This document shows positions 10,105 to 30,284 of a stretch of DNA of 64,000 nt, piece by piece. The DNA comes from Ancylobacter aquaticus (GTDB lineage Bacteria; Pseudomonadota; Alphaproteobacteria; Rhizobiales; Xanthobacteraceae): positions 1,116,001-1,180,000 of the forward strand of contig NZ_SMFY01000002.1 in NCBI RefSeq assembly GCF_004339465.1, in the 5' to 3' direction. Within the stretch, counting starts at the first letter, position 1, and each line of letters starts with the position of its first letter. A program made the position numbers and the translations under genes. The notes under the pieces are model-generated. The model saw only the letters and a program-made list of their open reading frames with translations, was not told where the DNA came from and searched no databases.

Positions 10105-10181
10105 GGCGGGGTAGCTCAGCTGGTTAGAGCACGGGAATCATAATCCTGGGGTCGGGGGTTCAAGTCCCTCTCCCGCTACCA
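10105..10181 (+). tRNA. tRNA-Met (CAT), elongator; island attachment site
   Basis: The 77-base sequence folds as a full cloverleaf with encoded CCA: D arm GCTCAGCTGGTTAGAGC, anticodon loop ATCATAA with CAT, T arm GGGGG-TTCAAGT-CCCTC, and acceptor GGCGGGG pairing with TCCCGCT. The resemblance is to elongator tRNA-Met rather than initiator (no C-A start mismatch) or the modified Ile-CAT tRNA. Its 3' 45 bases recur at the far end of the island, so this gene is the integration target and remains intact. Confidence 0.93.
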
Positions 10182-10182
10182 C
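10137..10182 (+). repeat. attL: 46-bp direct repeat in tRNA-Met 3' end
   Basis: This copy begins in the anticodon loop (ATCATAATCC) and ends one base past CCA. It is identical to 30239-30284 over 46 bases; the sequences diverge on both sides. Such repeats arise from site-specific integration by a tyrosine recombinase. Confidence 0.93.
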
Positions 10183-12536: not shown

Positions 12537-13745
12537 ATGCTGAATTCAATGAGCACCGCAGCACACGCCTCACAACCGAGACCGGACGTGTACATCACGG
12601 ACGAGCTGTCGCGACGCCCGTCCACAGCGCCTGATTATCTCAAGGAAAAGCGGGCAATTCAGTTGCTCGCGGCCACGATGGCGAATGAGCCGGATCGGGT
12701 TTTGCCTCGATTCGTTGAGCTCGCGATCGAGCTGACGGGTGGCAGTTCGGCCGGCTTGAGCCTTTACGAGCCGGAGCCGGCGCCAGGCCAGTTCCGCTGG
12801 GCCTATCTGAAGGGCGTGCTCTCGCCATTTGACGGCGCGACGACGCCTCGCGATTTCAGCCCATGCGGTGTCACTCTGGACGAGAACCGCCCTGTGCTGT
12901 CCCTTCATCCGGAGCGGATTTATGATTGGATTTCGGACGCCGGTATCGTCGTGCCTGAGGTCTTGCTTGTCCCCCTGCATGTGGGGGACGCAGACGCCCT
13001 CGGGACGCTGTGGATTGTGTCGGAGCAAGAGGGACATTTCAACAGCGGCCATTCCCGGATAGCCGAGGAATTGGCGGCGTTCGTGAGCGTCGCGCTGCAG
13101 ATGCTTCGTTCTCAACAACGCCTGTCTCGCGCGCTTGATGAACAGGAAACCCTCACTCGGGAGATGGGTCATCGGATCCAGAACCTGTTCGCGATGGTGA
13201 GCAGCATCCTGCGCAACAGCGCCCGTATGGCATCTGATAAAGAAGATCTCGCGGAAAAGGCGCTTGGGCGCCTTCATGCTCTCTCCACAGCGCATGGCCT
13301 TGTGAGACGGACCTTTGCTACGGGCGACGAGGTCCCCGTTATCGCTGATGTCCGCGAGTTGATCTTGGCAATCTTGGCGCCGCACGACGTGGCGGACAGC
13401 CGCTTCGACATCCGCGGCCCCTCATTGGCGTGCGGGGAGCGGGCCATCAATGGCCTTGCATTGACCATGCATGAGCTCGCGACGAATTCGACCAAATATG
13501 GCGCTCTCAGCAGCGACGAAGGGAAAGTCGAGATCACCTGGGCGGTGCGCGAGCAACAGCTCGAACTCGACTGGCAAGAGACGGGTGGACCGTCCATTTC
13601 AGGCCCGCCGTCCACGTCGGGTTTTGGATCGAAGCTGGCAAAGCTCACAATTGAACGGCAGTTCGGCGGTTCGATCAGCTACGACTGGCGCCGCACCGGC
13701 CTGGCGGTCCGCTTATCCATCCCTATTGAAGCGCTGACTTCGTAG
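12537..13745 (+). CDS. Soluble GAF-HWE sensor histidine kinase
   Basis: This 402-residue kinase has an N-terminal GAF-like sensor domain (about 40-190) and a C-terminal HWE transmitter. The phospho-acceptor is His212 in EMGHRIQNLFAMVSSI; the N box is MHELATNSTKYGAL (Asn317); the family's W-x-E is WQETGG (346-351), and the G box is SGFGSKL. No membrane segment is seen, so it senses a cytoplasmic signal. HWE kinases commonly feed PhyR or single-domain regulators of the general stress response, which fits the island's EcfG-type promoters. No partner response regulator is adjacent. Confidence 0.88.
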   Translation: MLNSMSTAAHASQPRPDVYITDELSRRPSTAPDYLKEKRAIQLLAATMANEPDRVLPRFVELAIELTGGSSAGLSLYEPEPAPGQFRWAYLKGVLSPFDGATTPRDFSPCGVTLDENRPVLSLHPERIYDWISDAGIVVPEVLLVPLHVGDADALGTLWIVSEQEGHFNSGHSRIAEELAAFVSVALQMLRSQQRLSRALDEQETLTREMGHRIQNLFAMVSSILRNSARMASDKEDLAEKALGRLHALSTAHGLVRRTFATGDEVPVIADVRELILAILAPHDVADSRFDIRGPSLACGERAINGLALTMHELATNSTKYGALSSDEGKVEITWAVREQQLELDWQETGGPSISGPPSTSGFGSKLAKLTIERQFGGSISYDWRRTGLAVRLSIPIEALTS

Positions 13746-14251
13746 AGGACGCTTTGGCACTACGCCGCAACCCGCGACCGCAACGAGATGCTGTCGCTGA
13801 CGGATATGTGGAAGGCGGCGGGCGAGCCCGAAACGAAGCGCCCGGCCGAATGGCTCCGGCAGGACTCGACGAAGGATTTCATCGAAATCGTCATGGTTTC
13901 AAATGTGGGCCAGAACCACATTTCGACGCGCCGTGGCAACAATGGCGGAACCTTCGCGCACTGGCAGATCGGCCTCGCCTACGCGAAGTATCTCTCGCCC
14001 GAGTTCCACATGTGGTGCAACGAGGTGGTGCGTGAGCGGCCAGGCCGGACCTTTCGCGAGAACCGCGAGCGCTTCGTCGAGGGCGAGGATTTCGCCACGC
14101 TGAACCAGCCGGACGAAATTCGTACGCTTGGTTTCACGCGTCCGCAGGGTGGAACGCCGGCCACCGTGATCCATCACGCGTCGCGGCTATCTGAAGCTCG
14201 TGAAGCCGCTCACCGATGATCGAGCCTGGGAAGTGCAGGGCGAGATGATCA
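13746..14251 (+). pseudogene. Decayed KilA-N / ORF6N phage antirepressor
   Basis: Starting right after the kinase stop, one frame reads LWHYAATRDRNEMLSLTDMW and later AHWQIGLAYAKYLSPEFHMW, a KilA-N DNA-binding domain without its beginning. It then jumps to RTFRENRERFVEGEDFATLN, the interior of an ORF6N/Rha-type domain. Near 14165 the frame must shift to continue as RRGYLKLVKPLTDDRAWEVQ. Missing start, internal fusion and frameshift mark this as a pseudogene. A 143-residue product could still be made from an ATG at 13788. Confidence 0.6.
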
Positions 14252-14494
14252 ATTCAGACCTTCGATCCGCCGCAGCACGCTTTCGATACGGGTCGTTACG
14301 GCCTCAATCTGCGCAGGGTCCTCGCTGACGGCCGCTGTCATTATCTCATCGATCAGGGCGTCGATCTCTGGCCCGTTGGCGTCACGAGTAGAGTTCAAAA
14401 ATTCGATCGCCGACAGAAGGGTGTCAAGCACTCGAGGAGGATCGATGTTGAGCACAATCTCGCGTGCTAGCGGTGTCTTCAAGCTCTGGTCCAT
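14249..14494 (-). CDS. Small acidic hypothetical protein in a stress-promoter operon
   Basis: I do not recognise this 81-residue protein (MDQSLKTPLAREIVLNIDPPRVLDTLL...). It is acidic and predicted helical, with a heptad-like C-terminal half (PEIDALIDEIMTAAVSEDPAQIEAVTTRIESVLRRI). It lies 68 bases downstream of the gene at 14563-14862 on the same strand, so both may be expressed from the EcfG-type promoter at 14905-14929. Confidence 0.6.
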   Translation of the reverse strand: MDQSLKTPLAREIVLNIDPPRVLDTLLSAIEFLNSTRDANGPEIDALIDEIMTAAVSEDPAQIEAVTTRIESVLRRIEGLN

Positions 14495-14562
14495 GATCCC
14501 GTCCCCCTCGCTGTCGAGGATACGGGATCGGCAGGGCGTCGGTCCATCCCGACCGGATTGCA

Positions 14563-14862
14563 TTAAGGGACGAGGGAACTGGTCGGCTTCAGAAAACGGA
14601 CTTCGGAACCGGTGCCGGTAAGGCTGCGCAAGACGACCTCATGAGTGCTCCCGTCTTGAAGCGCCAGCGACGCTCGACCCTCTTCAGCCGACAGCATCAC
14701 ATTCAAGGATGCCTCGATCTGTCCGGTGACCACGATCTCGCCTGCGTCCAGCCCCTTGGTGAGGCGGCAGACAGTGAGAAAATACTCCGCCTTTGTCGGC
14801 GGGTGGTCATCGGCATAAAGGGTACCAATACCTTGCAGGCGCCGGATGACTTGCATGGGCAT
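14563..14862 (-). CDS. Hypothetical protein under a predicted general-stress promoter
   Basis: The 99-residue product (MPMQVIRRLQGIGTLYADDH...) is not recognised. It looks like a small beta-rich domain (EIVVTGQIEASLNVMLSAEEGRASLALQDGSTHEVVLRSL) with no signal peptide or membrane segment. AAGGAG precedes the ATG at 14862. A consensus EcfG-type promoter lies about 43-67 bases upstream, which is the best clue to its role. Confidence 0.62.
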   Translation of the reverse strand: MPMQVIRRLQGIGTLYADDHPPTKAEYFLTVCRLTKGLDAGEIVVTGQIEASLNVMLSAEEGRASLALQDGSTHEVVLRSLTGTGSEVRFLKPTSSLVP

Positions 14863-14904
14863 TTGTCTCCTTGCGCTAACACTTTAGCGCCCCATCGCCG
14901 CTCC

Positions 14905-14929
14905 AACCTGCAACATGGAAGAACGTTCC
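14905..14929 (-). promoter_or_regulatory. EcfG-type general-stress promoter (GGAAC-N16-GGTT)
   Basis: On the minus strand GGAAC (14929-14925) is followed after exactly 16 bases by GGTT (14908-14905). The alphaproteobacterial sigma-EcfG consensus is GGAAC-N16/17-CGTT. The predicted transcript would start near 14897 and reach the ATG at 14862. Confidence 0.65.
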
Positions 14930-15438
14930 GTGAGGGCATGCCCCTGTCGCACAAGACGTAGGAGCAAAAGTCCGCCGGCTCGGCGACAACGCCTCCCACG
15001 GCATGCGGTGCACGAGCGCGGGCAAGCGCCGCGCCATGCTGCGGCTGCTCGACGATGCGGAATGGACCGCGTGGAGCGATCGATAGATCGCGCGTCCGTC
15101 AGGACTGTCCAACTCCTCTTCTGGCGCTTCGCCGCGATAGCCTGCGCCTTTCGGCTATCGAAACGCAAAAATGGCCCCGCCCTCACGAAGGAGAGCGAGG
15201 CCAACGAACATCTGATGGTGAAACTTGCGCTAGCCCGCGCCCGATGTCGCGGCCGCCCATCCTCGCACAGGAGCCCCGCGCGGTGATTGCCGACAGGCTC
15301 GGCTTTTCGATAGGGGCGGTCGGGCGGTTGCTGCATGTGCTGTGCGTCATGCCGCTTGATCCGTTGTAAGAGCGGGAGGGGCCGGCCCTCCGAAACTGAG
15401 TCCCCGACCAACCCGCGGCGATATCCCTATTTTTTCGA
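14930..15438. other. Region without a supported gene
   Basis: About 510 bases hold only short overlapping frames without recognisable domains. A plus-strand frame near 15270-15369 ends LGFSIGAVGRLLHVLCVMPLDPL and could be the tail of an old helix-turn-helix gene, but it has no intact start. I call no gene here. Confidence 0.45.
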
Positions 15439-15458
15439 GTTTGCGCCAAAATGCAAAC
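15439..15458. promoter_or_regulatory. Inverted repeat upstream of the HTH-ImmA gene
   Basis: GTTTGC-N8-GCAAAC sits 6 bases before the preferred ATG at 15465. HigA-like proteins generally bind a dyad over their own promoter, so this is a candidate autoregulatory operator. Its proximity to the start argues against the TTG at 15441 as the true start. Confidence 0.5.
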
Positions 15459-15464
15459 TTGCCT

Positions 15465-16607
15465 ATGTTGAGCATCACAATGAGCGAAGAGCCCCGCACT
15501 CCCGGCCAACTTATAACCGAGCTACTCAAGGAGCGCGGCTGGACCAATCGCGTGCTCGCGATTGTTCTCGAGGTAAACGAACCCATTGTGAGCCGGATGG
15601 CCAGCGACAAGCGCCCCATTGATGCTGCGATGGCTATCGCGCTGGAGGATGTATTCGGCGTTCCTGCGCAGAGATTCATCGCCTTGCAAGGCAGCGTCGA
15701 TCTCGCGAAAGCGCGAATCCTGTCGCGACCTGATCCCAAGCGCGCTGTGCGCGCCAAGATCTACGGCTATCTGCCAGTGGCGGAGATGGTCAAGCGCGGA
15801 TGGGTCGACGTCGAGGGCATGCGAGACCCTGAAGCGGTCGAGGCCGCGCTTAGACGGTTCTTCAAGGTCAACCGGATCGAAGATGTATCGGCCTTCGCTT
15901 TTGCCGCGAAGAAGACAGGCGCGGGCGGCGGTGCCAGCCCAGCCCAGCTCGCTTGGCTCCATCGAGTGAAGATGATCGCGAGCGAAATGCTGATAGGCTC
16001 CTACTCTCCTCAGAAGGTCGATGAGGCCATCGCCAAGATTTCCCCGCTGCGTGCGCATCCCGAGCATATGGCTCGCGTTCCGAGGATCCTTGCTGAGGCT
16101 GGTATTCGCTATGTGGTGGTGGAAAGTCTGCCGGGTGGCAAGATCGATGGCGCCTGTTTCTGGCTCGACGAGCGCACGCCGGTTATTGGCATGTCCCTTC
16201 GCTTCGATCGAATCGACAACTTCCTCTTTGTGCTGAGGCATGAGCTTGAACACGTTCGTCGGCGCGACGGCATCGAGACGCCAGTTATAGACGTCGATGT
16301 GGGGCGTCATGCCGACCATGAACTGGAAACCCAGGAACGCGTCGCCAACGATGCGGCGCGAGAGTTTTGTGTCCCGCAGAGGGACATGGACGCTTTTGTC
16401 GCCCGCAAGGCTCCCTACTTCTCTGATCTGGATCTTATCGGCTTCGCGCGCGTGCTGAAGGTCCATCCAGGTCTCGTAGCCGGACAGCTTCAGTTCCGGA
16501 CCGGCAGATACAACCACTTCCGCAGCCATCTCGCGACAGTTCGTGAATTCGTTCTTCCCACCGCCGAGGTGGACGGCTGGGGCAACATTCACCCGATAGA
16601 AATGTGA
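15465..16607 (+). CDS. HigA-like HTH fused to ImmA/IrrE metallopeptidase
   Basis: The 380-residue protein starts with a HigA-type helix-turn-helix (PGQLITELLKERGWTNRVLA, then VNEPIVSRMASDKRPIDAAMAIALEDVFG). A long middle domain is followed by an ImmA/IrrE (DUF955-like) zinc peptidase with HELEH near residue 260 (FLFVLRHELEHVRRRDG). Such proteins cleave regulators or act as parts of toxin-antitoxin-like modules. The next gene begins 11 bases later and is probably its partner. Alternative starts are TTG 15441 and ATG 15480; I chose ATG 15465. The substrate is unknown. Confidence 0.83.
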   Translation: MLSITMSEEPRTPGQLITELLKERGWTNRVLAIVLEVNEPIVSRMASDKRPIDAAMAIALEDVFGVPAQRFIALQGSVDLAKARILSRPDPKRAVRAKIYGYLPVAEMVKRGWVDVEGMRDPEAVEAALRRFFKVNRIEDVSAFAFAAKKTGAGGGASPAQLAWLHRVKMIASEMLIGSYSPQKVDEAIAKISPLRAHPEHMARVPRILAEAGIRYVVVESLPGGKIDGACFWLDERTPVIGMSLRFDRIDNFLFVLRHELEHVRRRDGIETPVIDVDVGRHADHELETQERVANDAAREFCVPQRDMDAFVARKAPYFSDLDLIGFARVLKVHPGLVAGQLQFRTGRYNHFRSHLATVREFVLPTAEVDGWGNIHPIEM

Positions 16608-16618
16608 GGGTTTAGACG

Positions 16619-17116
16619 TTGGCAGGAAAGAAACAGCTTCAGCAGATCATTGCTTTTTACCGCCTGAAGACAGGCGAAACCGAACTCGATCCTCGGAAGA
16701 TGGCCGAGTTCGCTGCCCGGAACGGGGTTGCGCTGCCGGATCCGAAAGACCCTCTGGACCTGCTGGCGCGAGAAATCAGTGCAGCGGCTCGTGAAGAACT
16801 TCGCCGAGACGAAACCACGAATCGGCCATATCGAGCCTACCACTCCCTGCCGATCCAGCACCCGGATGGACAGGTGTCTTTCGTATTCGTTGACATCGAG
16901 GACGCTACCCGCCCTCAGATGCATCGCTCGCTGACAAAGCGCCGTGAGCAGATGGTCGGCGACGCGGTGCATCTGATCTACGACGCCGACCGCTGGAATT
17001 CTCAAAACCCGCACCTTGCCCCCATCCAGATCGCCTTGGACTTCGGCCCGGACGTCGAATGGCGGAAGGCAATGGATGAGATGACTGATGAGAGTGCGGA
17101 GGGCAAGGAGGACTAG
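16619..17116 (+). CDS. Partner protein of the HTH-ImmA gene, unknown function
   Basis: This 165-residue protein (LAGKKQLQQIIAFYRLKTGET...) is not recognised. It begins at a TTG at 16619, preceded by GAGGG and by an in-frame stop 6 bases upstream, so an unusual start is forced unless translation begins even later. It is a soluble alpha/beta protein with a charged tail (EMTDESAEGKED). It lies 11 bases after the peptidase gene and is very likely cotranscribed, as toxin/antitoxin or substrate/protease partners often are. The role is inferred only from position. Confidence 0.65.
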   Translation: MAGKKQLQQIIAFYRLKTGETELDPRKMAEFAARNGVALPDPKDPLDLLAREISAAAREELRRDETTNRPYRAYHSLPIQHPDGQVSFVFVDIEDATRPQMHRSLTKRREQMVGDAVHLIYDADRWNSQNPHLAPIQIALDFGPDVEWRKAMDEMTDESAEGKED

Positions 17117-17384
17117 CGGGCGATGACATCGCCGGACGCTCACCCGCTGATCCTCAGCCAGTGACGCACAGCGTTGACCGCCTTATCGCCCGCCCTATCG
17201 GCTCCCGCCCCTCAAGCGTCGCGATGCCGTAAAAGCCGGGGAGGTTCACCCGCTGCCGCAGACGCCGACAACACAGCGCGCGGATTTCGTGTTGGCGTCT
17301 CTCGACCCCGTATAGCCAAGCCGCCGGCCGTATCCATGCCGACAGCCCCTTGTGGGACACCTTCCGAGCGTCATCCTCTTTCGA

Positions 17385-17666
17385 CTAGAACTGGCCAGCC
17401 TTAACGCTGGAAGGGCGGCTGGGAATCGCCACTTCCCCCTGATCCGTAAGAGTCGGGAACTCGCCGGCATTCACCAGCGCTTCGATCGGCTCAACCGGTG
17501 TGCCGGATGTCTCTTCGACCGAGAGCAGCGTCTCGGGCCGCCCTTCCTCGATCGCCAGAATCTCCTTGGCCTGGACCCAATGATCCTCAGCCCGGCCTTC
17601 CGGGCGGCCTTCCTGCTCCCAGATCTGGTGGGCCCGCGCGCGTATGGTTTCGTCACGTTCGTCCAT
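17385..17666 (-). CDS. DUF2934 protein
   Basis: The 93-residue protein begins MDERDETIRARAHQIWEQEGRPEGRAEDHWVQAKE, which is the DUF2934 motif found in many small alphaproteobacterial stress proteins. The C-terminal half is acidic and likely flexible. GGGAGGA precedes the ATG. It is divergent from topoisomerase IB, and both have consensus EcfG-type promoters in the 114-base gap. The molecular function is unknown. Confidence 0.85.
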   Translation of the reverse strand: MDERDETIRARAHQIWEQEGRPEGRAEDHWVQAKEILAIEEGRPETLLSVEETSGTPVEPIEALVNAGEFPTLTDQGEVAIPSRPSSVKAGQF

Positions 17667-17692
17667 GGAGTTCCTCCCGCTTGTTTAGCGAG

Positions 17693-17718
17693 AACGCGCT
17701 GTAGGCCCGGACCGTTCC
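17693..17718 (-). promoter_or_regulatory. EcfG-type general-stress promoter (GGAAC-N17-CGTT)
   Basis: On the minus strand GGAAC (17718-17714), 17 bases, then CGTT (17696-17693), both matching the sigma-EcfG consensus exactly. It would drive the DUF2934 gene with a leader of about 20 bases. Its -35 element forms a palindrome with the -35 of the opposite promoter. Confidence 0.75.
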
Positions 17719-17722
17719 GGCC

Positions 17723-17747
17723 GGAACCGGCGACACCGAGGCACGTT
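17723..17747 (+). promoter_or_regulatory. EcfG-type general-stress promoter (GGAAC-N16-CGTT)
   Basis: On the plus strand GGAAC (17723-17727), 16 bases, then CGTT (17744-17747): a perfect consensus match. It lies 34 bases upstream of the topoisomerase IB start and is back-to-back with the DUF2934 promoter (GTTCC-GGCC-GGAAC). Confidence 0.78.
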
Positions 17748-17780
17748 GAGCGTCAGTCGTGCGGAGGCGCGTTCATCGAC

Positions 17781-18872
17781 ATGGCAGAAAAAACCACCAT
17801 CCGGCGCCTGGCGCGCCGCTTCGATCTCAAGATCGTCTCACCCGCAAGTCTCACGATCCGCCGCAAGCGTCGCGGACGTGGCTTCAGCTACGAGACCGCC
17901 GACGGCGTACAGCTGAAGGACGCTCAGGAACTGGCAAGGCTGCGCGGCCTCGCCGTGCCGCCGGCCTACCGCAATGTGTGCTTCGCCGCTGATCCGCGCG
18001 CCCATCTCCAGGCGATCGGCGAAGATGCCGCCGGGCGGCTGCAATACCGCTATCATCCGGATTGGACGCTGGTGCGCGAGACGTTGAAGGCCGACCGGCT
18101 TTCCGGCCTCGCGCAGGCGCTACCTCGCATCCTGCGCTGTGTACGCCGGGAATTGCGCCAGCCGTCGTCTCCCCGCCGCTTCGCGCTCGCCGCCGTGGTG
18201 CAACTCGTCGCGCTCACCGCGATCCGCGCCGGCAGCGAGGAGTATGTGCGTGAGCACGGCACGCGCGGAGCGACGACGCTGCTGAAATCGCATCTGCGGC
18301 TCAACGACGACGAGGTGGCACTGGCCTTCAAGGGCAAGGGCGGCAAGACCATCCGCAAGCAGTGCCGCGACGCCGATCTCGCCCGGGCACTTGCGCGGCT
18401 GAAGGAGATTCCCGGCGTGCGCCTGTTCAAATACCGGGGCGAGGATGGCGGCGTTTACGCGGTACGTGGCGCCGACGTGAACGCCTTTCTGAAAGCTATC
18501 AGCGGGCAGGCAATCTCGCTGAAGGATTTCCGCACCCTCACCGCATCGCTCGGCGTGCTCGATCGGCTCGGCCGGCTGGAGCCGGCCGGAAATGAGCGCG
18601 GCAGGCGTCAGCAGATCCGGCAGGCGATCGCCCCCTTGGCCGACGAACTCGCCAACACGCTGGTGGTCTGCCGCACCAGCTATGTCCATGATAGCGTGAT
18701 CTCCGCCTTTGAGGCCGGCACGCTTGCCAAGTCCGGACCCGAGGCGCGCTCCCCCCTCGCGCGGATGCAATTGCTGTCCGAACTCCTGCGGAGCAAAGGC
18801 TGCCGCCCGGGATGCGCTCGAAAGAGCGTCAGCCGCGGCGCAGCGGGAGCGGCCGAGGCGATGGCGCCATAG
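17781..18872 (+). CDS. DNA topoisomerase IB
   Basis: The 363-residue protein is a bacterial (poxvirus-like) type IB topoisomerase, which relaxes supercoils through a 3'-phosphotyrosyl intermediate. The catalytic residues can be placed: Arg149 in IRAGSEEY, Lys187 in FKGKGGKTIRK, Arg251 in LKDFRTLTAS and the nucleophile Tyr301 in CRTSYVHDSV. The usual FRTWHAT motif reads FRTLTAS here, a divergence near the active site. Family members in rhizobia are often stress-induced; the consensus EcfG promoter directly upstream supports that. The start at 17781 follows GGAG at some distance. Confidence 0.9.
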   Translation: MAEKTTIRRLARRFDLKIVSPASLTIRRKRRGRGFSYETADGVQLKDAQELARLRGLAVPPAYRNVCFAADPRAHLQAIGEDAAGRLQYRYHPDWTLVRETLKADRLSGLAQALPRILRCVRRELRQPSSPRRFALAAVVQLVALTAIRAGSEEYVREHGTRGATTLLKSHLRLNDDEVALAFKGKGGKTIRKQCRDADLARALARLKEIPGVRLFKYRGEDGGVYAVRGADVNAFLKAISGQAISLKDFRTLTASLGVLDRLGRLEPAGNERGRRQQIRQAIAPLADELANTLVVCRTSYVHDSVISAFEAGTLAKSGPEARSPLARMQLLSELLRSKGCRPGCARKSVSRGAAGAAEAMAP

Positions 18873-19116
18873 TCCCCAGCCGGCCAGACAGAAACCGAAC
18901 CGCACCTCGTATCGGTGTCGGCATCACCGTCTGCCGCAGCGTGCGCCTTGCCTATTAGCGGCATTCCTGTGGCGCTTCTCTGCGCTGATTTCGGTCTCAA
19001 CCCCGACAACGTCGGCGCCTCGCCGCGCAGTTCTGCGCCGCCTGCTCGATGGAAGGCTCGCGCTGCAATTTTCTGATCATGGCGCGAGCAGCTTGGCAAC
19101 GTAGGCCATGGCTTCC

Positions 19117-20286
19117 TCAGGGTTTCAGCACGACCTTGATGCAGCCATCGTGCTTGTCGCGGAACGTCTTGTAGAGATCGGGGCCCTCTTCCAGCGTCGC
19201 CCGATGAGTAATGACGAAAGACGGGTCGATCTCGCCCTTCTCGATCCGCTCGAGCAGCATGGGCAGATAATGCTGCACCGGCGTCTGGGCCATGCGGAAA
19301 CGCAGGCCTCGATTGATCGCCGAGCCCATCGGCACCTTGTCGAGAAAGCCGCCATAGACGCCGACAATGGAAACGGTGCCGAAGTTACGGCAGCAATGGA
19401 TCGCCTGGCGCAGCACATGCGGGCGATCGGTTCCCATGAACAGGGCGGTCTTCACCCGGTCGAGCACGGAATCGGCACTGGCCGTTGTATCTGCTTCGGT
19501 GCCCACCGCATCGATGCAGCCATCCGCCCCGCGCCCATGGGTGAGTTCCATGATGCGCTCATAGATATCCTCTTCGTGGAAATCGAGCGTCAGCGCGCCG
19601 CCGGCCCGCGCGAGCGCGAGACGCTCGGGCACGGTGTCGATGGCAATCACCCGCTCGGCGCCGAGCAGGAAGGCGGAACGGATCGCCATCTGGCCGATCG
19701 GCCCGCAGCCCCAGATCGCGATCGTGTCGCCCGGCTGGATCTCGCAGAATTCGGCGGCCATGTAACCGGTGGGGAAGATGTCAGACAGAAAGAGAACCTG
19801 CTCGTCGCTCAGCCCGTCCGGCACTTTGATAGGCCCGACATCGGCATAGGGAATGCGCAGATACTCGGCCTGACCGCCGGCATACCCGCCCAGCAGGTGC
19901 GAATAGCCGAACAGGCCGCCGGGGGAATTGCCCCAGAGCTTGGCCGCCTTCTCCCGGTCGGGGTTGCTGCGCTCGCACCCGGAGAAATAACCCCGCTTGC
20001 AGAAGAAGCACTCGCCGCAGGAGATGGTGAAGGGCACCACAACGCGGTCGCCGACTTTCAGCTTGCTGTTGCCGGCACCGACCTCGACCACTTCGCCCAT
20101 GGTCTCATGGCCGAGCACGTCGCCCTGCTCCATGCCGGGAATGATGCCGCCATAGATATGAAGGTCCGACCCGCAGATGGCGCAGGCGGTGACCTTGATG
20201 ATGGCGTCGCGGCCATCCTCGATCTTGGGATCGGGTACGCTCTCGCAGCGTATGTCGCCCTTGCCGTGCCAGGTCAGCGCTTTCAT
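19117..20286 (-). CDS. Zinc-dependent alcohol dehydrogenase (formaldehyde dehydrogenase-like)
   Basis: The 389-residue medium-chain dehydrogenase shows the catalytic-zinc region [11 protein letters not shown] and [12 protein letters not shown], four structural-zinc cysteines in [15 protein letters not shown], and the NAD-binding [15 protein letters not shown]. The insertions and order match the glutathione-independent formaldehyde-dehydrogenase-like group (FDH_like). The substrate is not certain; small aldehydes or alcohols are likely. It lies 94 bases downstream of the DUF892 gene on the same strand and may share its stress promoter. Confidence 0.87.
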
Positions 20287-20380
20287 GGGCTCCTCGAAGG
20301 TTCAGGGCGGCACCTCGCCGCATTTGGACTATTAGGCAGGCAAGGCGGGCGCCAACCATCCGGCCGGCGCCCATACACCC

Positions 20381-20878
20381 TCACGCGGCCTTGAGGGCCT
20401 TCTGGTTTGCGACTTGGTCGGCCAGCGCCGACAGACTGTCGTCGGTCAGCGACTCTTCCTGGAGCGTCGCGTCCAGCAGCTTGACGGCGTCCTTCATGCC
20501 GAGCACTTCGGCCCAGCGCTTGAGCGTGCCATAGCGAGCGATCTCATAATGCTCGACAGCCTGGGCAGCTGCGACAAGACCGGCGTCGAGGGCCGGCTGG
20601 CCCTTGAATTCCTCAAGGATCTCTTCGCCTTCCTCGAGGATGCCCTCGATGGCGGCGCAGGTTTTGCCCTGCGGGCGCTTGCCGAGCAGCTCGAATACCT
20701 GCTGAAGGCGCTCTATCTGGCCTTCGGTTTCATCCCGATGCTTCTCGAACGCCGCCTTCAGCTCGGGCGACTGCGCGCCCCGCGCCATTTTCGGCAATGC
20801 CTTCACGATCTTGCGCTCGGCGTAATAAATGTCCTTGAGGGTCTCGTGAAAGAGTACTTCGAGGTTTTTCTCGGCCAT
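20381..20878 (-). CDS. DUF892 (YciE/YciF-type) ferritin-like protein
   Basis: The 165-residue, all-helical protein (MAEKNLEVLFHETLKDIYYAERKIVKALPKM) belongs to the DUF892 family of ferritin-like four-helix bundles. The metal-ligand pattern is visible: E...YxxE in helix 1, HRDETEGQIERL in helix 2, and EHYEIARYG in helix 3. Homologues are hallmarks of stress regulons in alphaproteobacteria. I used the ATG at 20878; a TTG start two codons upstream is less likely. An EcfG-type promoter lies at 20919-20943. Confidence 0.9.
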   Translation of the reverse strand: MAEKNLEVLFHETLKDIYYAERKIVKALPKMARGAQSPELKAAFEKHRDETEGQIERLQQVFELLGKRPQGKTCAAIEGILEEGEEILEEFKGQPALDAGLVAAAQAVEHYEIARYGTLKRWAEVLGMKDAVKLLDATLQEESLTDDSLSALADQVANQKALKAA

Positions 20879-20918
20879 TTCCAATCTCCGTGCGTTTCTC
20901 TCCCAAGCTCGAGCGGAG

Positions 20919-20943
20919 AACCGCGTGAGAAGCTCTTCGTTCC
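20919..20943 (-). promoter_or_regulatory. EcfG-type general-stress promoter (GGAAC-N16-GGTT)
   Basis: On the minus strand GGAAC (20943-20939), 16 bases, then GGTT (20922-20919). It is 41 bases upstream of the DUF892 start, a typical distance. The C-to-G change at the first -10 base is tolerated in known EcfG promoters. Confidence 0.68.
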
Positions 20944-20958
20944 CGGCGTTGATAAAGG

Positions 20959-21588
20959 CTATGAGGATACCGCTCCCAGAAAATCTTCCGTGGCGACCAT
21001 GTAGATTTGTTGGGCGAAGCGGGTTCGGTAAATTGTAAGCGCCGCTTCATGTCCCTCATCTGATGACGAACAGACAGCATCATCCACAATCACAATGCGA
21101 TATCCTCTGTCGACCCCGTCCATGACGGTGGCCAGCACGCACATGTCGGTCTCCGCTCCGGTGACGATCAGGGTGTCCACGCTGTGACGGTTGAGGATTG
21201 CCGCCAGCGCGGGCGCTGAGAACGCAGAGAAGCGGCGCTTGTCCACCGTGCGGGCCGGCGGCGCGAAGCAAGCCAGATCCTCGACTAACGCAATCTCCGC
21301 CGGGTCGAGTCTCTCCAGCGTGAGATGTGACCAGCGCTGGTAATATTGCCGCCATGTGCCGATCTCAGCTTCCGGATCGGCAGCCGGGATGAAGCGGGTG
21401 AAGACTGTCCGCTCAGCGAGGCGCTCCGCGACCGCAACAATGTTCGGCAGTACCCCGACCATCCATGGCGTTGGCCAGGGCCCTTCAGGCGAGAAAAGAC
21501 GCTGCATGTCGAGACATAGATGAAAGGCCGTGCCGCTCGCCAGACCGGCTGAGATGGTGCGGGCCAAGCCGCTCTCGAAACGATCCAT
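20959..21588 (-). CDS. Isochorismatase-family cysteine hydrolase
   Basis: The 209-residue protein has the catalytic triad pattern of the isochorismatase-like hydrolases: Asp in LCLDMQRLF, Lys in VDKRRFSAF and Cys in GAETDMCVLATVMDG. Members hydrolyse amides or vinyl ethers (nicotinamidase, N-carbamoyl compounds); the substrate here is unknown. GGAGGACC precedes the ATG at 21588. A predicted EcfG promoter is upstream. Its gene sits between other stress-type genes on the island. Confidence 0.87.
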   Translation of the reverse strand: MDRFESGLARTISAGLASGTAFHLCLDMQRLFSPEGPWPTPWMVGVLPNIVAVAERLAERTVFTRFIPAADPEAEIGTWRQYYQRWSHLTLERLDPAEIALVEDLACFAPPARTVDKRRFSAFSAPALAAILNRHSVDTLIVTGAETDMCVLATVMDGVDRGYRIVIVDDAVCSSSDEGHEAALTIYRTRFAQQIYMVATEDFLGAVSS

Positions 21589-21614
21589 TTGCGGTCCTCC
21601 AGTCGCGAAGGAAA

Positions 21615-21639
21615 AACAGCGCGCCGATGCGAGCGTTCC
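21615..21639 (-). promoter_or_regulatory. EcfG-type general-stress promoter (GGAAC-N16-TGTT)
   Basis: On the minus strand GGAAC (21639-21635), 16 bases, then TGTT (21618-21615), placed 27 bases upstream of the hydrolase start. This is one mismatch from the full consensus at the least conserved -10 base. Confidence 0.62.
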
Positions 21640-21874
21640 GCTGCAGGCGGCGGCAATACTCGCCGACGGAGGCCTTGTTTGGGAACCGACAGCCACAAAC
21701 GCATCACGACGCATTCAACTCGAGCCGCGGGTGGGACGAAGCCGCCGCAGCCGGTAGAGCGCTAGAATTCTACGTTTGACGCCAGCTCTGGCGGCATTCC
21801 GAGCGGAATTAACCTCCTCCGCACTCGCGAGAAGCTTCACTGGCGACTGAAGGGGTCTGGCCAACATAGAATGG

Positions 21875-22120
21875 TTACCGTCGGGCCTGCCACCAGGCAC
21901 CGATGACAAAGCCAAGCGCCGCGCCGATTAGGACCCCGTTGAGGGGGGAAATTGTCGTACGAAACGTCTGGTTAGTGCTTCGATATACCTGTGCGCCTTG
22001 CTGCCGGATATATACGGCGGCGTCTTCGATCCGCTGCACGGCCTTGTCGATGGGCTCCGGCTTACACCGGGCTTCCAATGGATCGGCATAGGATTGCAGG
22101 TCATCATTGGCGTTGGACAC
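21875..22120 (-). CDS. Small tail-anchored membrane protein (DUF883/ElaB-like)
   Basis: This 81-residue protein has an amphipathic helical N-terminus (DKAVQRIEDAAVYIRQQGAQVYRSTNQTFRT) and one C-terminal membrane segment (GVLIGAALGFVIGAWWQARR). That plan matches the ElaB/YqjD/DUF883 class of small stress-induced inner-membrane proteins, though similarity is by layout rather than strict motif. No EcfG promoter was found directly upstream; it may be read through from the gene at 22193. Confidence 0.68.
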   Translation of the reverse strand: MSNANDDLQSYADPLEARCKPEPIDKAVQRIEDAAVYIRQQGAQVYRSTNQTFRTTISPLNGVLIGAALGFVIGAWWQARR

Positions 22121-22147
22121 GAAAGCCTCCGAATCCGGTGATGGAAC

Positions 22148-22174
22148 AAGGAGGGCACCGCTGGCGCCCTCCTT
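22148..22174 (-). terminator. Hairpin after the secreted-protein gene
   Basis: AAGGAGGGC (22148-22156) pairs with GCCCTCCTT (22166-22174), a perfect 9-base stem just downstream of the gene ending at 22193 on the minus strand. The T-run is weak, so it may be a processing or attenuation hairpin instead. Confidence 0.5.
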
Positions 22175-22192
22175 ACCGCGAACAGCCCCATA

Positions 22193-22612
22193 CTAGCCGC
22201 GCATCAGCTTTTCCGCCTCGTCGAGTGCTTTCTGGCATGCGTTGTCGTCGCCGGCTTTATCAGCCTGTTTGGCGCGGGCTACGGCGTCGCTGACCTGCTT
22301 GGCCGAAGAGGCACCTCCCTGCGCGGCCGTCGGTTGCCCAGAGGTCTGGGCCCGGACATCGGCCGGCGACGTGGCTTTGTTTCCGACGGTGGCGTTCATG
22401 CCGGCAGTGCCGCCGGTTCCGGGTGCTTCCCCAGCACGCGGCACGCCGGGATCCGAAGCAGTCGTCGCCGCCGGGGCCGATTGTGTGGGCCCAGACCCGG
22501 CGTCCGTCGCGGAAAGGTCCTTCTCAATTTGGGCGATACGCTCCGTGCATGGACCGGCGTAAGCGGCGCCGGCCATCAGGGACAACGTGGCGCAGAGTGC
22601 GATCATCTTCAT
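22193..22612 (-). CDS. Secreted Ala/Gly-rich hypothetical protein
   Basis: The 139-residue precursor starts with a clear signal peptide (MKMIALCATLSLMAGAAYA) and a mature part with GPCTERIAQIEKDL, a long disordered Ala/Gly/Thr/Pro-rich middle, and a helical end (AVARAKQADKAGDDNACQKALDEAEKLM). One cysteine is near each end of the mature chain and they could form a disulfide. It is predicted periplasmic. AGGAGG precedes the ATG, and a perfect EcfG promoter lies 36-60 bases upstream. Confidence 0.78.
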   Translation of the reverse strand: MKMIALCATLSLMAGAAYAGPCTERIAQIEKDLSATDAGSGPTQSAPAATTASDPGVPRAGEAPGTGGTAGMNATVGNKATSPADVRAQTSGQPTAAQGGASSAKQVSDAVARAKQADKAGDDNACQKALDEAEKLMRG

Positions 22613-22647
22613 GGCGTTCCTCCTACCGATAAGTTCGGCGGGGGAGG

Positions 22648-22672
22648 AACGGGCGGGGACAACGCATGTTCC
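22648..22672 (-). promoter_or_regulatory. EcfG-type general-stress promoter (GGAAC-N16-CGTT)
   Basis: On the minus strand GGAAC (22672-22668), 16 bases, then CGTT (22651-22648), a perfect match to the sigma-EcfG consensus, upstream of the secreted-protein gene. Confidence 0.75.
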
Positions 22673-22766
22673 CTCTGCAGCATCAACTGCAGCCATATGA
22701 AGGTGGGCGAGATCGTTAGGTCAGCGATGATGCCGGTAGCGCCAGAGCGAGGACGTCTGATCTCGC

Positions 22767-22982
22767 TCAAGGTTCTTTAATGAGTTCAAGGTATTCGGCC
22801 GTCATCGTTTCGATCTCCTCGGCGCTGAAAGGCCAGACGCCGTCGACGATACCCTGCCGGATTTCGTTGGCGAGGACCGGCCAATAGCGATCCACCAGCG
22901 CAGGAATATCAGCTTCGTTGACATTTCGGTTTCGCAGATCAATGGCGCAGAGCTCCCTGGCGGTATCTTCAGTCTTTTTCAC
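22767..22982 (-). CDS. Small acidic hypothetical protein
   Basis: A 71-residue protein starting at a GTG (VKKTEDTARELCAIDLRNRNVNEADIPALVDRYWPVLANEIRQG...) with GGAG 9 bases upstream. It is helical and soluble, with no known domain. The reading frame extends further upstream without a good start, so the GTG is chosen on the ribosome site and on the fall in coding character beyond it. Confidence 0.6.
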   Translation of the reverse strand: MKKTEDTARELCAIDLRNRNVNEADIPALVDRYWPVLANEIRQGIVDGVWPFSAEEIETMTAEYLELIKEP

Positions 22983-23089
22983 GGTGGTGCTCCTGACATT
23001 TCCACCTACACATGTGCCGGCGGCGACTATATCAGGGCAGATACTCTCTCTGCCAAGAGGTATTCTCGGGCCAGAGTAGTCTGCATGCC

Positions 23090-23362
23090 TCAGATGAAAA
23101 AGCGGGAAACCTCGTCCGCGTCCTGGAGCACTATAAAGCCGAGGCCGGCGGCCGTGAGATCGGTCGGCTTGATGTTGATCCAGCGTCCGGCTTCCGTCAC
23201 GAGAATGGCCCTGCCAGCCGCGCGCGCCTCGATGATCATGATCATCTCGGAGAGTACCCTTCCGCTCGCCCTCCCATCCTCGAAGCTGATTTCGAAGGTG
23301 GCGGTCGATGAGCCGAGGCCGCTTGCGCGAAGCCATCCTGTGGCGTGTACTGTTCTGACCAT
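23090..23362 (-). CDS. Hypothetical protein
   Basis: The 90-residue protein (MVRTVHATGWLRASGLGSSTATFEISFEDGRASGR...) is not recognised. It looks like a small beta-rich domain with alternating hydrophobics (FEISFEDGRASGRVLSEM, RAILVTEAGRWINIKP), with no signal or membrane segment. It sits in a run of small minus-strand genes on the island, 29 bases after the ribbon-helix-helix gene, and may be in the same transcript. Confidence 0.62.
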   Translation of the reverse strand: MVRTVHATGWLRASGLGSSTATFEISFEDGRASGRVLSEMIMIIEARAAGRAILVTEAGRWINIKPTDLTAAGLGFIVLQDADEVSRFFI

Positions 23363-23391
23363 AAATGTCGCTCGCTCCCGACCGGGCTTCC

Positions 23392-23625
23392 TCAGGAGCC
23401 GGGATTGTGCCGGTAGTGCTGCAAAACGAATAGGCGCAGCGCTGAGGAGAGACTTCCGTATACCCTAAGTGAATCGATGCTTGAGACGAGCTCCGCGATC
23501 GACTGCCCGCGGTCGCGGGCAATGTCTTTCAGCGACGACCAAAATTCGTCCTCGAGGGATACGCTGGTTTTCTGCCCGTTCGTAATCACTGACCGCTTCG
23601 GAACGGACTTTGCACTCTCGGCCAT
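23392..23625 (-). CDS. Ribbon-helix-helix domain protein (RHH_4 type)
   Basis: The 77-residue protein contains PKRSVITNGQKTSVSLEDEFWSSLKDIARDRGQSIAELVSSID, the ribbon-helix-helix_4 pattern found in alphaproteobacterial small regulators. The ribbon residues (KTSVSLE) would contact DNA as a dimer. Starts at ATG 23625 or, four codons upstream, ATG 23637 are both possible. Its target is unknown; it may control neighbouring island genes. Confidence 0.82.
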   Translation of the reverse strand: MAESAKSVPKRSVITNGQKTSVSLEDEFWSSLKDIARDRGQSIAELVSSIDSLRVYGSLSSALRLFVLQHYRHNPGS

Positions 23626-23783
23626 GCTTGACTCCATTCCAGATCGCGATGTCACACCCGCTCCTATCGCCGATTCCAAACCGAGCTCCTAGTGTCACGA
23701 TGATGACAAACACGTCAGGGCAGGGATACCGCGCAACGTCGCTCTGATCTACCGGAGTATCGGCGCACCGCGACAGGCGTCGC

Positions 23784-24014
23784 TCACAATCCGCCGCGGT
23801 GCCGAATTGCATTGACAGAGACGGAAGCGATCAGCCTGGATTCGCCATCGAAAACCTCTAGGGCCACGCCTTCGCCGGGCGCCATGCTCCCGTCAACATC
23901 CCGAAGCAATTGTCCGACAGAGGCGACGGCTTCCGACCACGCGTGGTCATCGCTGGTCAGTTCGATCTCATGGATCGGACGACGGTCGGACCATTTGAAG
24001 GAGTAAGTTGGCAC
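23784..24014 (-). CDS. DUF6894-like small protein
   Basis: The 76-residue product begins at a GTG (VPTYSFKWSDRRPIHEIELTSDDHAWSEAVASVGQLLRDVDG...) and resembles the DUF6894 pattern of M-PxYxFxxxDG... with L...AW.EA. These small proteins are abundant in Hyphomicrobiales and have no known function. Frame choice is supported by alternating hydrophobic residues (VALEVFDGESRLIASVSV). No EcfG promoter with correct spacing was seen. Confidence 0.6.
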   Translation of the reverse strand: MPTYSFKWSDRRPIHEIELTSDDHAWSEAVASVGQLLRDVDGSMAPGEGVALEVFDGESRLIASVSVNAIRHRGGL

Positions 24015-24167
24015 GTCGCACCTCGCACGTTCCCCCTTCAGCAACCCGGACCCGCCGGTTCTGTTTCCGCCAGGACATGAATTCTTGGAACAGGCGGGCC
24101 CTGGAAACGCTGGCACGGGTGCGCCGATCTCGACCTGGCGACCCGCCGCGAGACATTCGCTCGACGA

Positions 24168-24395
24168 TCAGCGGCTGGGGGCTGGAACCGCGACAAGCGA
24201 GATCTTTCTGCTATCGCATTCGCCGCACCGAAACTGCCGCACCATCGCCTTATGCGACACGCGATGATCACGACCAAGCTGGAGGGCTAGAAACGAGAGA
24301 TCGAGCATGCGGGTTTTCCAACACACCAAACATGTCGCTCTGACCCCAAGTCCGAGGTCGATGCATTCGCCGAGGGTCGCGTTCTCCAGGTCCAT
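24168..24395 (-). CDS. Small zinc-ribbon-like protein
   Basis: The 75-residue protein has two CxxC pairs, CLVC (about residue 22) and CGEC (about 61), plus a nearby basic stretch, so it can form a zinc ribbon. It begins MDLENATLGECIDLGLGVRA. No family is recognised with confidence. It might be a nucleic-acid-binding island protein. Confidence 0.62.
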   Translation of the reverse strand: MDLENATLGECIDLGLGVRATCLVCWKTRMLDLSFLALQLGRDHRVSHKAMVRQFRCGECDSRKISLVAVPAPSR

Positions 24396-24531
24396 TGTGG
24401 CAGCATAGTAACAAGAGAGGGACACGCCAAAGCACAACATGGCTGGAGCGTGTGACGCCTCCACGAAGCCGGATCGGAACTGCCGCGGCTCAGGCCGGCT
24501 TGATAAGGCACTACCTTAGGAGTGCCGCTGA

Positions 24532-24837
24532 ATGGATCACAGCAAACACGTCAGGCTCACCCCGACAGAGCTCATCCCGCAGAACCTCGAAGGCGCGGCG
24601 GTCTTCGGTCCTCACAACGAGAAGATCGGGATCGTCTCTCAGCTGCACGGGACCGGTCCCGACAGCCGGGTGGTTGTCGACGTCGACCTGCACAGCATGT
24701 TGGGCGCTGGGGCAAAGCCGGTGGCCCTGCCGATCAGCAATCTCGACTTCATGCGAGATAACGACGGATCGGTTCACGCGGTAACGTCTTGGACAAAAGA
24801 GCAGCTGAGCGAGCAACCTGACCACCGAGGGTTCTGA
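24532..24837 (+). CDS. PRC-barrel domain protein
   Basis: The 101-residue protein is a single PRC-barrel-like domain: LIPQNLEGAAVFGPHNEKIGIVSQLH, then VVVDVDLHSMLGAGAKPVALPISNLDFMRDNDGSVHA. Such proteins are common in rhizobial stress regulons. A GGAAC at 24476-24480 is followed by GCTT after 17 bases, a weak match that I do not call a promoter. It is convergent with the tape measure gene. Confidence 0.78.
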   Translation: MDHSKHVRLTPTELIPQNLEGAAVFGPHNEKIGIVSQLHGTGPDSRVVVDVDLHSMLGAGAKPVALPISNLDFMRDNDGSVHAVTSWTKEQLSEQPDHRGF

Positions 24838-24861
24838 AGGCTGTCCCGCTGCCGGGCCGGG

Positions 24862-26880
24862 TCAATCGATACCGGCGTCAGAATGGATGCCACGAAGGCT
24901 TTGCCCGAGGTCTCCGCGCCCCATGCGCGGCGCCACGGTGGACGCATTCACCGCGTTGATCTCGCTGCGCAGGAGCCTGATCTTCGCCAGCGCCTCGTCG
25001 ATCGAGCCCGCGTCGATGGCAGGGGCGACCCGCGTCGCTCCGACCTGGTCGAGGGCGCTCTTCGCCTCCCCGGCCTTCGCCGATAGATCGCCCAGAGCGG
25101 CCGCACCAGCGGCGCCGAGATCGCCGGGCACCTTGGGCGGGGCTGGCTCGTCGAAGGCCGCCGGCGGGACGGTGATGGCCGGGCCGCGCAGCGGGTTCGG
25201 CTCCGGCATCGGCGCCGCAGGAGGCGCCGGCTGCGCCGTCTTCTCCGCCTGCCGTGCCCGCCAGTTGTGGAAGGAAGCCCGGCCAGTTGCAGCGTCGATC
25301 GGTACCTCTACCGGCGGCGGTGGCGTCCGCAGGTTCTCTGCCGCGATCTTGTCCCACTGGCTGGCTTCGCGAAGGCGCTTGAGCGCCTCGGTCAGCTTCT
25401 CAATATCGCGGACGATCTCCGCACCGAAGCCGAGATCCTTCGCCGTCGGTGTCAGGGCGGCATAATCGGCTTGCGCCGCTGCAATCTGTTTCTCGACCGT
25501 AGCCATTTCCTTTTGCCGCGCTGCATCGCGGGCATCGATCTCCCGGGCTCGGGCGAGATCAGGATTGGCGCGCTCGGCGTCGCGGCGATCATTGGCCGCC
25601 TTCTTCTCCTCCGGCGTCGCGATGCCCAGCCCCTTGCGGGCGACCTCCATGACGTCGGCCAGGGACATGCCGGTCGTGGATCGCAACCAGTTGCTGAAGT
25701 CGTCGAGCTCGCCCTTGGCGCCCCGGATGTCTTGCAAAATCCCTTCCATGAGGCCGACGCCTGGCGCTGCGGTCAGCGCGCCGATCTCACGGACGAAGTC
25801 GTCCCATTTGTTTGAAAGGCGGTCGAGCTCGGTCATCGTGTCACCCGAGAGCTGCGACAGCGCGCCGGCAACCGATCCAGCGGAGTTCTTCAGCTGGGCC
25901 TCGATCCTGCCAACCTCTTCACGCTGCGCGAGCAGCGATCTCATGCCTCTCGCAAATTCCATATCTGAGAAAAGTTGCGGGATTTTCGAGAGATCGCCTT
26001 TGGTCGCCTTGGCGGCGAGGTCGATAAAGACCTCAAGCAGGTCTTTGCCCTCGCGCCGAGCCTGCGCCATCTCTTTCCGGAGGTTGACGCCGAACTTCAT
26101 GAAGCGTTTGGCGGTTTCCTGCGATTCCATCTTGGCGAAGATGTTTGACATCGACGACGCGGCTTCTTCAGAATTCCCCATTTGCGACCGCATCACCTGC
26201 AGCATAGCCACTAACTTGCGGACACCTTCTTCGCCGCGCAGGCCGACCGCGGCGGCATTAGCCGCGAGGCTGGGCAGATAGCGGGCCATGTCGCGGAGCT
26301 CGAATTTCCCCAGGTTGCCGCCCTGAACCAAAATGTCGAATGCCGCTTGCATCTGGCTCCCGGCGATCTTGAAACTCGTCGCCAGAGCATCGGCAGTGCT
26401 GGCGATGTCTGCCGTCTGCGCGCCGGCGGCGTGGGCCGTGGCGACGACGGCGGGCAGGAACGCCATCGCCTCAGGTAGCGATCGACCGGCGGCGACGAGG
26501 GCTTCCAGACCGCTGACGACTTGATCGAGCGGCACCCCTACCTTGTCGGCGATCGTGCCGACATCCGCCGTGGCTGTCTTGACCTCGCCGGCCGACGCGC
26601 CGGCGGTGATCCCGACCCGGGTCATCGTCCGCTCAAGTTCAGCGAACGACGTGATCGCCGCGCGCATTCCGATCGCAGCGCCGGCAATGCCACCCACGGC
26701 GCCGAGCACCCTCGTCGATGCGATCGCCGCCGCGTCGCTCGCCCTGCCAGCCATTGCCGTTGCCACGCTGGCGCGCGTCACGGTGCTTTGCAGACGCCGA
26801 ACGGAAGCGCCCGCTTTTGCAGCTGGGGCGGTCACTCCGTCGACGAGCCGGACGCTGAGAATTGAGGTGAGGCTCGCCAT
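24862..26880 (-). CDS. Phage tail tape measure protein (TP901-type)
   Basis: The 672-residue protein is a short tape measure protein: an N-terminal TP901 core with the repeated alanine/glycine helices (AVGGIAGAAIGMRAAITSFAELERTMTRVGITAGASAGEVKTA), then a coiled coil (RREEVGRI..., KEMATVEKQIAAAQADY) and a proline-rich C-terminal part. It would set tail length in a siphophage or GTA-like particle. It starts with a one-base TAATG overlap after the tail chaperone gene. No further tail genes follow; a PRC-barrel gene is convergent at its end. Confidence 0.87.
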   Translation of the reverse strand: MASLTSILSVRLVDGVTAPAAKAGASVRRLQSTVTRASVATAMAGRASDAAAIASTRVLGAVGGIAGAAIGMRAAITSFAELERTMTRVGITAGASAGEVKTATADVGTIADKVGVPLDQVVSGLEALVAAGRSLPEAMAFLPAVVATAHAAGAQTADIASTADALATSFKIAGSQMQAAFDILVQGGNLGKFELRDMARYLPSLAANAAAVGLRGEEGVRKLVAMLQVMRSQMGNSEEAASSMSNIFAKMESQETAKRFMKFGVNLRKEMAQARREGKDLLEVFIDLAAKATKGDLSKIPQLFSDMEFARGMRSLLAQREEVGRIEAQLKNSAGSVAGALSQLSGDTMTELDRLSNKWDDFVREIGALTAAPGVGLMEGILQDIRGAKGELDDFSNWLRSTTGMSLADVMEVARKGLGIATPEEKKAANDRRDAERANPDLARAREIDARDAARQKEMATVEKQIAAAQADYAALTPTAKDLGFGAEIVRDIEKLTEALKRLREASQWDKIAAENLRTPPPPVEVPIDAATGRASFHNWRARQAEKTAQPAPPAAPMPEPNPLRGPAITVPPAAFDEPAPPKVPGDLGAAGAAALGDLSAKAGEAKSALDQVGATRVAPAIDAGSIDEALAKIRLLRSEINAVNASTVAPRMGRGDLGQSLRGIHSDAGID

Positions 26881-28282: not shown

Positions 28283-28468
28283 TCACGCGGCTTGACGGAA
28301 AAAACGCACCAACTCGCTGCGTTCGGCGACCCATCGGTTGCCGATCTGCTTCGCGGGGAGCTTGCCGTTCGAGAGCATATAATGCGTCTGACGAACGGTC
28401 CGGCCGATCGCGACTGCGATCGCTTCAAGCCCCCAGATTAGATCGAGATCCTGACTGCGCTGTTCCAA
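28283..28468 (-). CDS. AlpA/excisionase-like helix-turn-helix protein
   Basis: The 61-residue protein (MEQRSQDLDLIWGLEAIAVAIGRTVRQTHYMLSNGKLPAKQIGNRWVAERSELVRFFRQAA) is a MerR-like/AlpA-type winged HTH, as used by phage excisionases and prophage regulators. Its position, divergent from the Arc-like gene and one gene from the integrase, fits a recombination directionality factor. It heads a minus-strand unit with two small genes. Confidence 0.8.
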   Translation of the reverse strand: MEQRSQDLDLIWGLEAIAVAIGRTVRQTHYMLSNGKLPAKQIGNRWVAERSELVRFFRQAA

Positions 28469-30238: not shown

Positions 30239-30284
30239 ATCATAATCCTGGGGTCGGGGGTTCAAGTCCCTCTCCCGCTACCAC
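30239..30284 (+). repeat. attR: 46-bp direct repeat, right end of island
   Basis: This copy is identical to the 3' part of tRNA-Met at 10137-10182 (anticodon loop to one base past CCA) but has no tRNA 5' half. It is the distal attachment site of the element. Confidence 0.93.

Follow-up and report, generated by a model that had tools for sequence, protein, structure and literature searches.

A Phage-Like Element at a tRNA-Met Gene of Ancylobacter aquaticus with Stress Genes behind EcfG-Type Promoter Motifs

The sigma-EcfG regulon of the Alphaproteobacteria, plasmid-borne parts of the general stress response (GSR), and tRNA-targeted islands and prophage remnants are the described systems closest to the locus considered here. 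Within the parts of the published accounts that we draw on, the entries in the EcfG table of S. melonis include a small secreted protein, topoisomerase IB, and a PRC-barrel gene whose site carries GGTT (PMC6599016), and the GSR promoters of S. granuli show wide variation of the -10 element, with up to 14 different boxes (PMC7083833). GSR components borne on plasmids include EcfG2 of R. etli (PMC3892343) and PakD/PkrD of S. melonis (PMC6599016). Here, we describe a 20.1-kb element, the island, integrated at a tRNA-Met gene of Ancylobacter aquaticus. It lies in a window of 64,000 nucleotides (contig NZ_SMFY01000002.1, positions 1,116,001 to 1,180,000, forward strand), by which we mean the whole stretch of DNA that was analysed.

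An earlier note on this DNA had described the island as a transferable set of genes wired into the host EcfG network. That description stands in part: the insertion is real, the host encodes a PhyR-NepR-EcfG module with the motif, and five of the six promoter-like sites recur before homologous genes. We consider it probable (about 0.8) that part of an EcfG-wired stress locus resident in the genus was captured, promoters included, by a phage-like element in tRNA-Met.

Insertion of the island at tRNA-Met

The island is a site-specific insertion. Perfect 46-bp direct repeats of the tRNA-Met 3' end enclose it, a tyrosine integrase lies between them, and two relatives (G013 and G016) retain the empty site, in which sequence like the right flank of the island directly follows tRNA-Met with a single copy of the repeat. 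The G+C content is 0.69 left of the left border, 0.58 directly after it, and 0.58-0.66 within the island.

The element is best read as degenerate and phage-like. No transfer genes were recognised among the island proteins scanned, and a tape-measure protein, the sole structural protein recognised in the same set, does not make an intact prophage. Within the phage collection no near match of the island was found and the integrase had distant matches only (<60%); a scan against Rfam returned the tRNA and nothing else. A sister element of ~18 kb occupies a tRNA-Met gene of G008 (G008:C39; L398, L417), with an integrase 75% identical to that of the island and other cargo. At a tRNA-Asp gene of G013 (G013:C13, L402) lies a prophage that is fuller than the island and is without the island's stress genes. 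The gene u110, a short stretch of the gene at 11727-12113, the noncoding segment at 15010-15091, and the tape-measure gene are colinear in this prophage, and its tape-measure protein is 88% identical to that of the island (24862-27206). The noncoding segment, which has no Rfam match, is ~80% conserved in G013 (L402) and also in G018 (L416).

Promoter-like sites and their recurrence

The six GGAAC-N16/17-NGTT sites described earlier were all recovered on their respective strands, with spacers of 16 or 17 nucleotides (Table 1). Three carry the full CGTT, as had been claimed, namely those before DUF2934, topoisomerase IB (topoIB), and the secreted protein; two others carry GGTT and one TGTT. Each stands directly upstream of an island gene, with the start codon 26-42 nucleotides away, and most of these start codons are preceded by a visible ribosome-binding stretch.

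Motifs of this kind could be chance matches in G+C-rich intergenic DNA, with other promoters driving the genes. The counts alone lean toward this: the relaxed motif occurs 8 times in the window versus 2.85 expected, a mild enrichment that was reached in 2 of 100 shuffles, and the genome-wide excess of the CGTT form over the reversed pattern is modest (72 sites versus 53). Since the shuffles are too weak by themselves, placement and footprints have to decide, and significance comes from position. Six of the seven relaxed sites in the island lie 26-42 nucleotides upstream of a same-strand start; the seventh (22646-22670, + strand) overlaps the site 22672-22648 on the opposite strand, and a further CGTT site (42536-42560) falls outside the island. 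Among 300 letter-permuted control motifs, promoter-placed sites averaged 0.06 with a maximum of 2, versus the 6 observed, in a test that covered 29 island genes, ten of them set by hand. Genes were called by a simple purpose-made caller trained on a 400-kb background and the window. This background was chosen after the strict sites had been seen, holds none of them, and was used in training and in the permuted-motif controls, not in the strict counts. The enrichment check proposed in the earlier note, run as a genome-wide motif count, points the same way: ~0.27 promoter-placed sites are expected per 20.1 kb from the genome rate and six were seen (Poisson P ~4e-7, uncorrected for the place having been picked beforehand among ~240 such stretches). 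Weak evidence comes from the stretch 14200-24900, in which no sigma-70-like site was found, versus 2.0 in shuffles. As the motif also recurs in five gene families and in none of eight other island families, we regard chance as a very improbable source of these sites.

The host has a single NepR gene, flanked by those of PhyR and an ECF sigma factor, with an HWE kinase gene adjoining. We take this sigma factor for EcfG from its ECF sigma domains and its place next to NepR, and CGTT sites precede both phyR and nepR. Genome-wide, 48 of the 72 CGTT sites lie within 150 nucleotides upstream of a same-strand start, as placed by our own gene caller, and the DGTT form occurs 84 times versus 53 for its reversed pattern.

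Recurrence was counted as a relaxed motif at most 160 nucleotides upstream of a homologous gene; rows from the window itself were left out, as were upstream ends that were identical. By this count five of the six putative promoters recur before homologous genes, and the isochorismatase site fails. The motif precedes all 12 DUF2934 homologues, 11 of the 12 topoIB homologues of at least 60% identity, 30 of 37 homologues of DUF892, 12 of 15 of the secreted protein, and 6 of 7 of the 99-residue protein u99. It also stands before the one DUF883-like homologue (1/1) and, in its NGTT form, before all three homologues of the small PRC-like gene (24532..24837), although the island site of that gene, which the earlier note does not list, has decayed to GCTT. 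No motif was found upstream of homologues of the alcohol dehydrogenase (ADH; 0/8), u71 (0/9), u90 (0/9), RHH (0/5), '104' (0/7), DUF6894 (0/3), the integrase (0/11), the tape measure (0/1), u110 (0/1), or HTH_17 (0/1), and no homologue of the HWE, XRE, KilA, u165, Arc, or DUF5677 genes came through the filter. With permuted motifs the mean of a group did not exceed 0.15, and single maxima reached 6. Because the search itself prescribes the motif core, which is kept, the informative part lies in spacer change and distance. Spacer identity to the majority base averages 49-62% in these families, and the distance from motif to start is 24-32 nucleotides for DUF2934, 38-42 for u99, centred near 40 (29-84) for DUF892, and near 37 (32-60) for the secreted protein.

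A number of observations weigh against a captured, EcfG-wired stress locus. Among the matches listed for the 60 relatives, no single piece spans more than ~2.3 kb of the island, and the 20-kb set does not recur whole. No second genome was seen to carry the element, repeated transfer would thus be conjecture, and here the earlier picture of a transferable set goes beyond the evidence. The same holds for the isochorismatase site, the weakest of the six, since the motif precedes only 1 of 5 homologues. The closest of these genes (G028, G007, and G010; 75-76%) start differently and failed the filter, and no EcfG-type site lies before them in the 150 nucleotides read; as they follow DUF2934 on the same strand, they may be read from the DUF2934 promoter there. 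Less close topoIB homologues carry the motif in 15 of 44 cases at 40-60% identity and in 0 of 7 below 40%. Three of the six island sites lack a consensus -10, and DGTT sites are mostly away from promoters genome-wide: when the first 30 of the 84 were inspected, 7 lay upstream of a gene. In addition, the homologues counted belong to related species and so lack independence, and ADH, which links the two captured pairs described below, has no motif of its own.

Origin of the cargo and role of the island kinase

Stretches resembling the cargo occur in congeners away from any tRNA gene. In G014, G015, and G019 such a stretch shares five to seven genes with the cargo: DUF892 and a pair of DUF2934 genes in each, joined in differing combinations by topoIB, isochorismatase, DUF883-like, u90, and u71 genes; 20 kb of it contains 6 (G014), 7 (G015), or 8 (G019) CGTT sites. 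These loci lie on 4.6-Mb contigs in G015 and G019 and on a 355-kb contig in G014, and no integrase was seen in them by eye. Congener stress loci L267, L268, and L285 (6-8 CGTT sites per 20 kb) include, by eye, alpha-amylase- or trehalose-synthase-like genes. The likeness to tRNA-free loci suggests that the island holds a captured piece of a genus regulon, rather than a regulon proven to travel. DUF2934, topoIB, and ADH stand together in a conserved tRNA-free setting in G002 and G009, and G027:C16 holds a DUF892-ADH pair. From these pairs the island looks like a mosaic of genus-resident stress genes, in which the two pairs would have met at ADH.

The same setting raises the alternative that the genes are chromosomal residents of the lineage, around which the element inserted or which it rearranged. 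The DUF2934-topoIB pair occupies one conserved tRNA-free setting in G002, G009, and G016 (in G016 without ADH), and coding scores are host-like for ADH and DUF892 and intermediate for topoIB. Against residence, the two 46-bp repeats enclose the cargo and are represented in relatives by one copy that joins both flanks, and a separate DUF892 copy remains in the host at C3, from which the island copy stands apart, grouping with that of G027:C16 (support 96/95). The C3 copy, too, has a site of the GGTT type. The topoIB of the island clusters with those of G002 and G009 (support 97/94), and a search of the host genome for the G002 setting recovered, at like similarity, just its right flank (C2:148595-151539). 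We consider residence unlikely.

According to the capture reading, a 20.1-kb phage-like integrative element occupies the tRNA-Met gene, and the piece of a GSR locus in its middle was taken up with its own promoters. Under stress, phosphorylated PhyR of the host would sequester NepR and free EcfG, which would initiate at the five conserved sites and perhaps at the sixth. The products would be u99, DUF2934, topoIB, DUF892 (with ADH behind it), and the small secreted protein, and read-through may reach ADH and other downstream genes. The cargo would thus lie quiet under favourable conditions and serve the cell under stress, a benefit that is presumed, as is the dependence on EcfG.

A further possibility concerns the soluble HWE kinase that the earlier note placed on the island. 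Its presence is borne out by the HWE domain (PF07536); a role in the stress set is not. Selection might have gathered stress genes on mobile elements, with the island kinase feeding the host PhyR. The element carries the kinase, an HWE kinase likewise lies near the closest accessory DUF892-ADH pair (G027:C16), and plasmid records hold homologues of DUF892 (411) and topoIB (373); at 4 of 10 plasmid loci, hand-picked from 50 listed, the DUF892 or topoIB copies, from other families, have the motif 23-83 nucleotides upstream. Against this, the island kinase has no EcfG-type site upstream and scores 37.6 bits with the PhyK model, whose cut-off is 750, the two HWE kinases show 36% likeness across half of their length, and no GGAAC-N16/17-NGTT site occurs near the G008 sister element in the 99.6 kb read. 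We think that such an evolved mobile cassette is unlikely, and we likewise doubt that this element is a closed GSR cassette, reading EcfG through its promoters and feeding PhyR through its own soluble GAF-HWE kinase. Were it one, the element would be connected to the stress network of its host on the input side as well as on the output side.

Other genes of the island are included in Table 1. Several members of the u99 family occur in G007 (5 copies) and in G010 (3 copies), and a single-sequence structure prediction for u99 was poor (mean pLDDT 42) and was not used. The secreted protein has a 70% paralogue at G000:C2:484198. An XRE/ImmA-like protein with a 165-residue partner is encoded at 15480-17116; as the former matches PD-Lambda-2_B of PADLOC (6e-42), the island may also house an operon for phage defence. 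A KilA-N protein at 13788-14219 has a weak PADLOC match to PDC-S22 (2e-9).

Table 1. Coordinates of the island, its promoter-like sites, and its genes (positions in the window).
Feature	Position	Strand	Evidence or remark
tRNA-Met (CAT), integration target	10105..10181	+	Intact; ARAGORN, Rfam
attL, 46-bp copy of tRNA-Met 3' end	10137..10182	+	Perfect direct repeat, spacing 20,102
GAF-HWE histidine kinase	12537..13745	+	PF07536 6.2e-15, PF13185; no EcfG-type site upstream
'104', 81-residue frame behind u99	14249..14494	-	Homologues sit in u99 loci; possible common transcript
u99, 99-residue protein	14563..14862	-	No family matched
EcfG-type site GGAAC-N16-GGTT	14905..14929	-	42 nt ahead of u99
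DUF2934 protein	17385..17666	-	PF11154 1.5e-13
EcfG-type site GGAAC-N17-CGTT	17693..17718	-	26 nt ahead of DUF2934
EcfG-type site GGAAC-N16-CGTT	17723..17747	+	33 nt ahead of topoIB
DNA topoisomerase IB	17781..18872	+	PF01028, PF21338; start from gene caller
Zn alcohol dehydrogenase (ADH)	19117..20286	-	PF08240, PF00107; behind DUF892, no own motif
DUF892, ferritin-like	20381..20878	-	PF05974 3.7e-62
EcfG-type site GGAAC-N16-GGTT	20919..20943	-	40 nt ahead of DUF892
Isochorismatase-fold hydrolase	20959..21585	-	PF00857 5.1e-35
EcfG-like site GGAAC-N16-TGTT	21615..21639	-	29 nt ahead of isochorismatase
81-residue protein	21875..22120	-	DUF883-like by eye; no Pfam/NCBIfam match
Small secreted protein	22193..22612	-	Signal-peptide-like N terminus by eye; no family
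EcfG-type site GGAAC-N16-CGTT	22648..22672	-	35 nt ahead of secreted protein
u71	22767..22982	-	Homologues in congeners' stress loci
u90	23090..23362	-	Homologues in congeners' stress loci
Decayed EcfG-like site GGAAC-N17-GCTT	24476..24501	+	Ahead of small PRC-barrel-like gene
Small protein	24532..24837	+	PRC-barrel-like by eye; no Pfam/NCBIfam match
Phage tape-measure protein (scaffold)	24862..26880	-	PF10145; phrog_34270 8e-89
HTH_17 protein	28283..28468	-	PF12728 1.4e-4, under cut-off; possibly excisionase-like by position
Tyrosine integrase, 415 residues	28942..30189	+	PF00589 7.7e-17; phrog_1 1.7e-62; inside right end of element
attR, second 46-bp copy	30239..30284	+	Single copy joined to right flank in G013, G016

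Comparison with known systems

If the capture reading is correct, an element can take up genes together with promoters that any EcfG-sharing host could read, and its cargo would remain quiet until stress with no need of a regulator of its own. The recurrence of the sites would moreover tie u99, DUF2934, and the small secreted protein to the GSR as testable families. Among the literature matches listed, in a search that mostly lay outside subscription journals, no integrative element wired to EcfG was described.

The locus resembles the sigma-EcfG regulon of the Alphaproteobacteria in its promoter motif, the PhyR-NepR-sigma module of its host, topoisomerase IB, and a PRC-barrel gene (PMC6599016). 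It differs in that part of the regulon appears to lie inside a tRNA-targeted element, and DUF2934 and u99 are not among the S. melonis genes in the portion of that source considered here. Plasmid-borne GSR parts are alike in that accessory DNA carries them; as far as the portions of those accounts drawn on here go, they are regulators, whereas the present element would bring output genes, with NepR at the host locus only. With tRNA-targeted islands and prophage remnants it shares repeats of the tRNA 3' end, a tyrosine integrase, phage genes, and a shift in composition, and it is unlike them in that a single alternative sigma factor of the host appears to control much of what it carries. Because GSR parts on plasmids are already known, the kind of arrangement is known as well, and the concentration of such genes on one integrative element is a variant of it, ordinary in principle and unusual in concentration.

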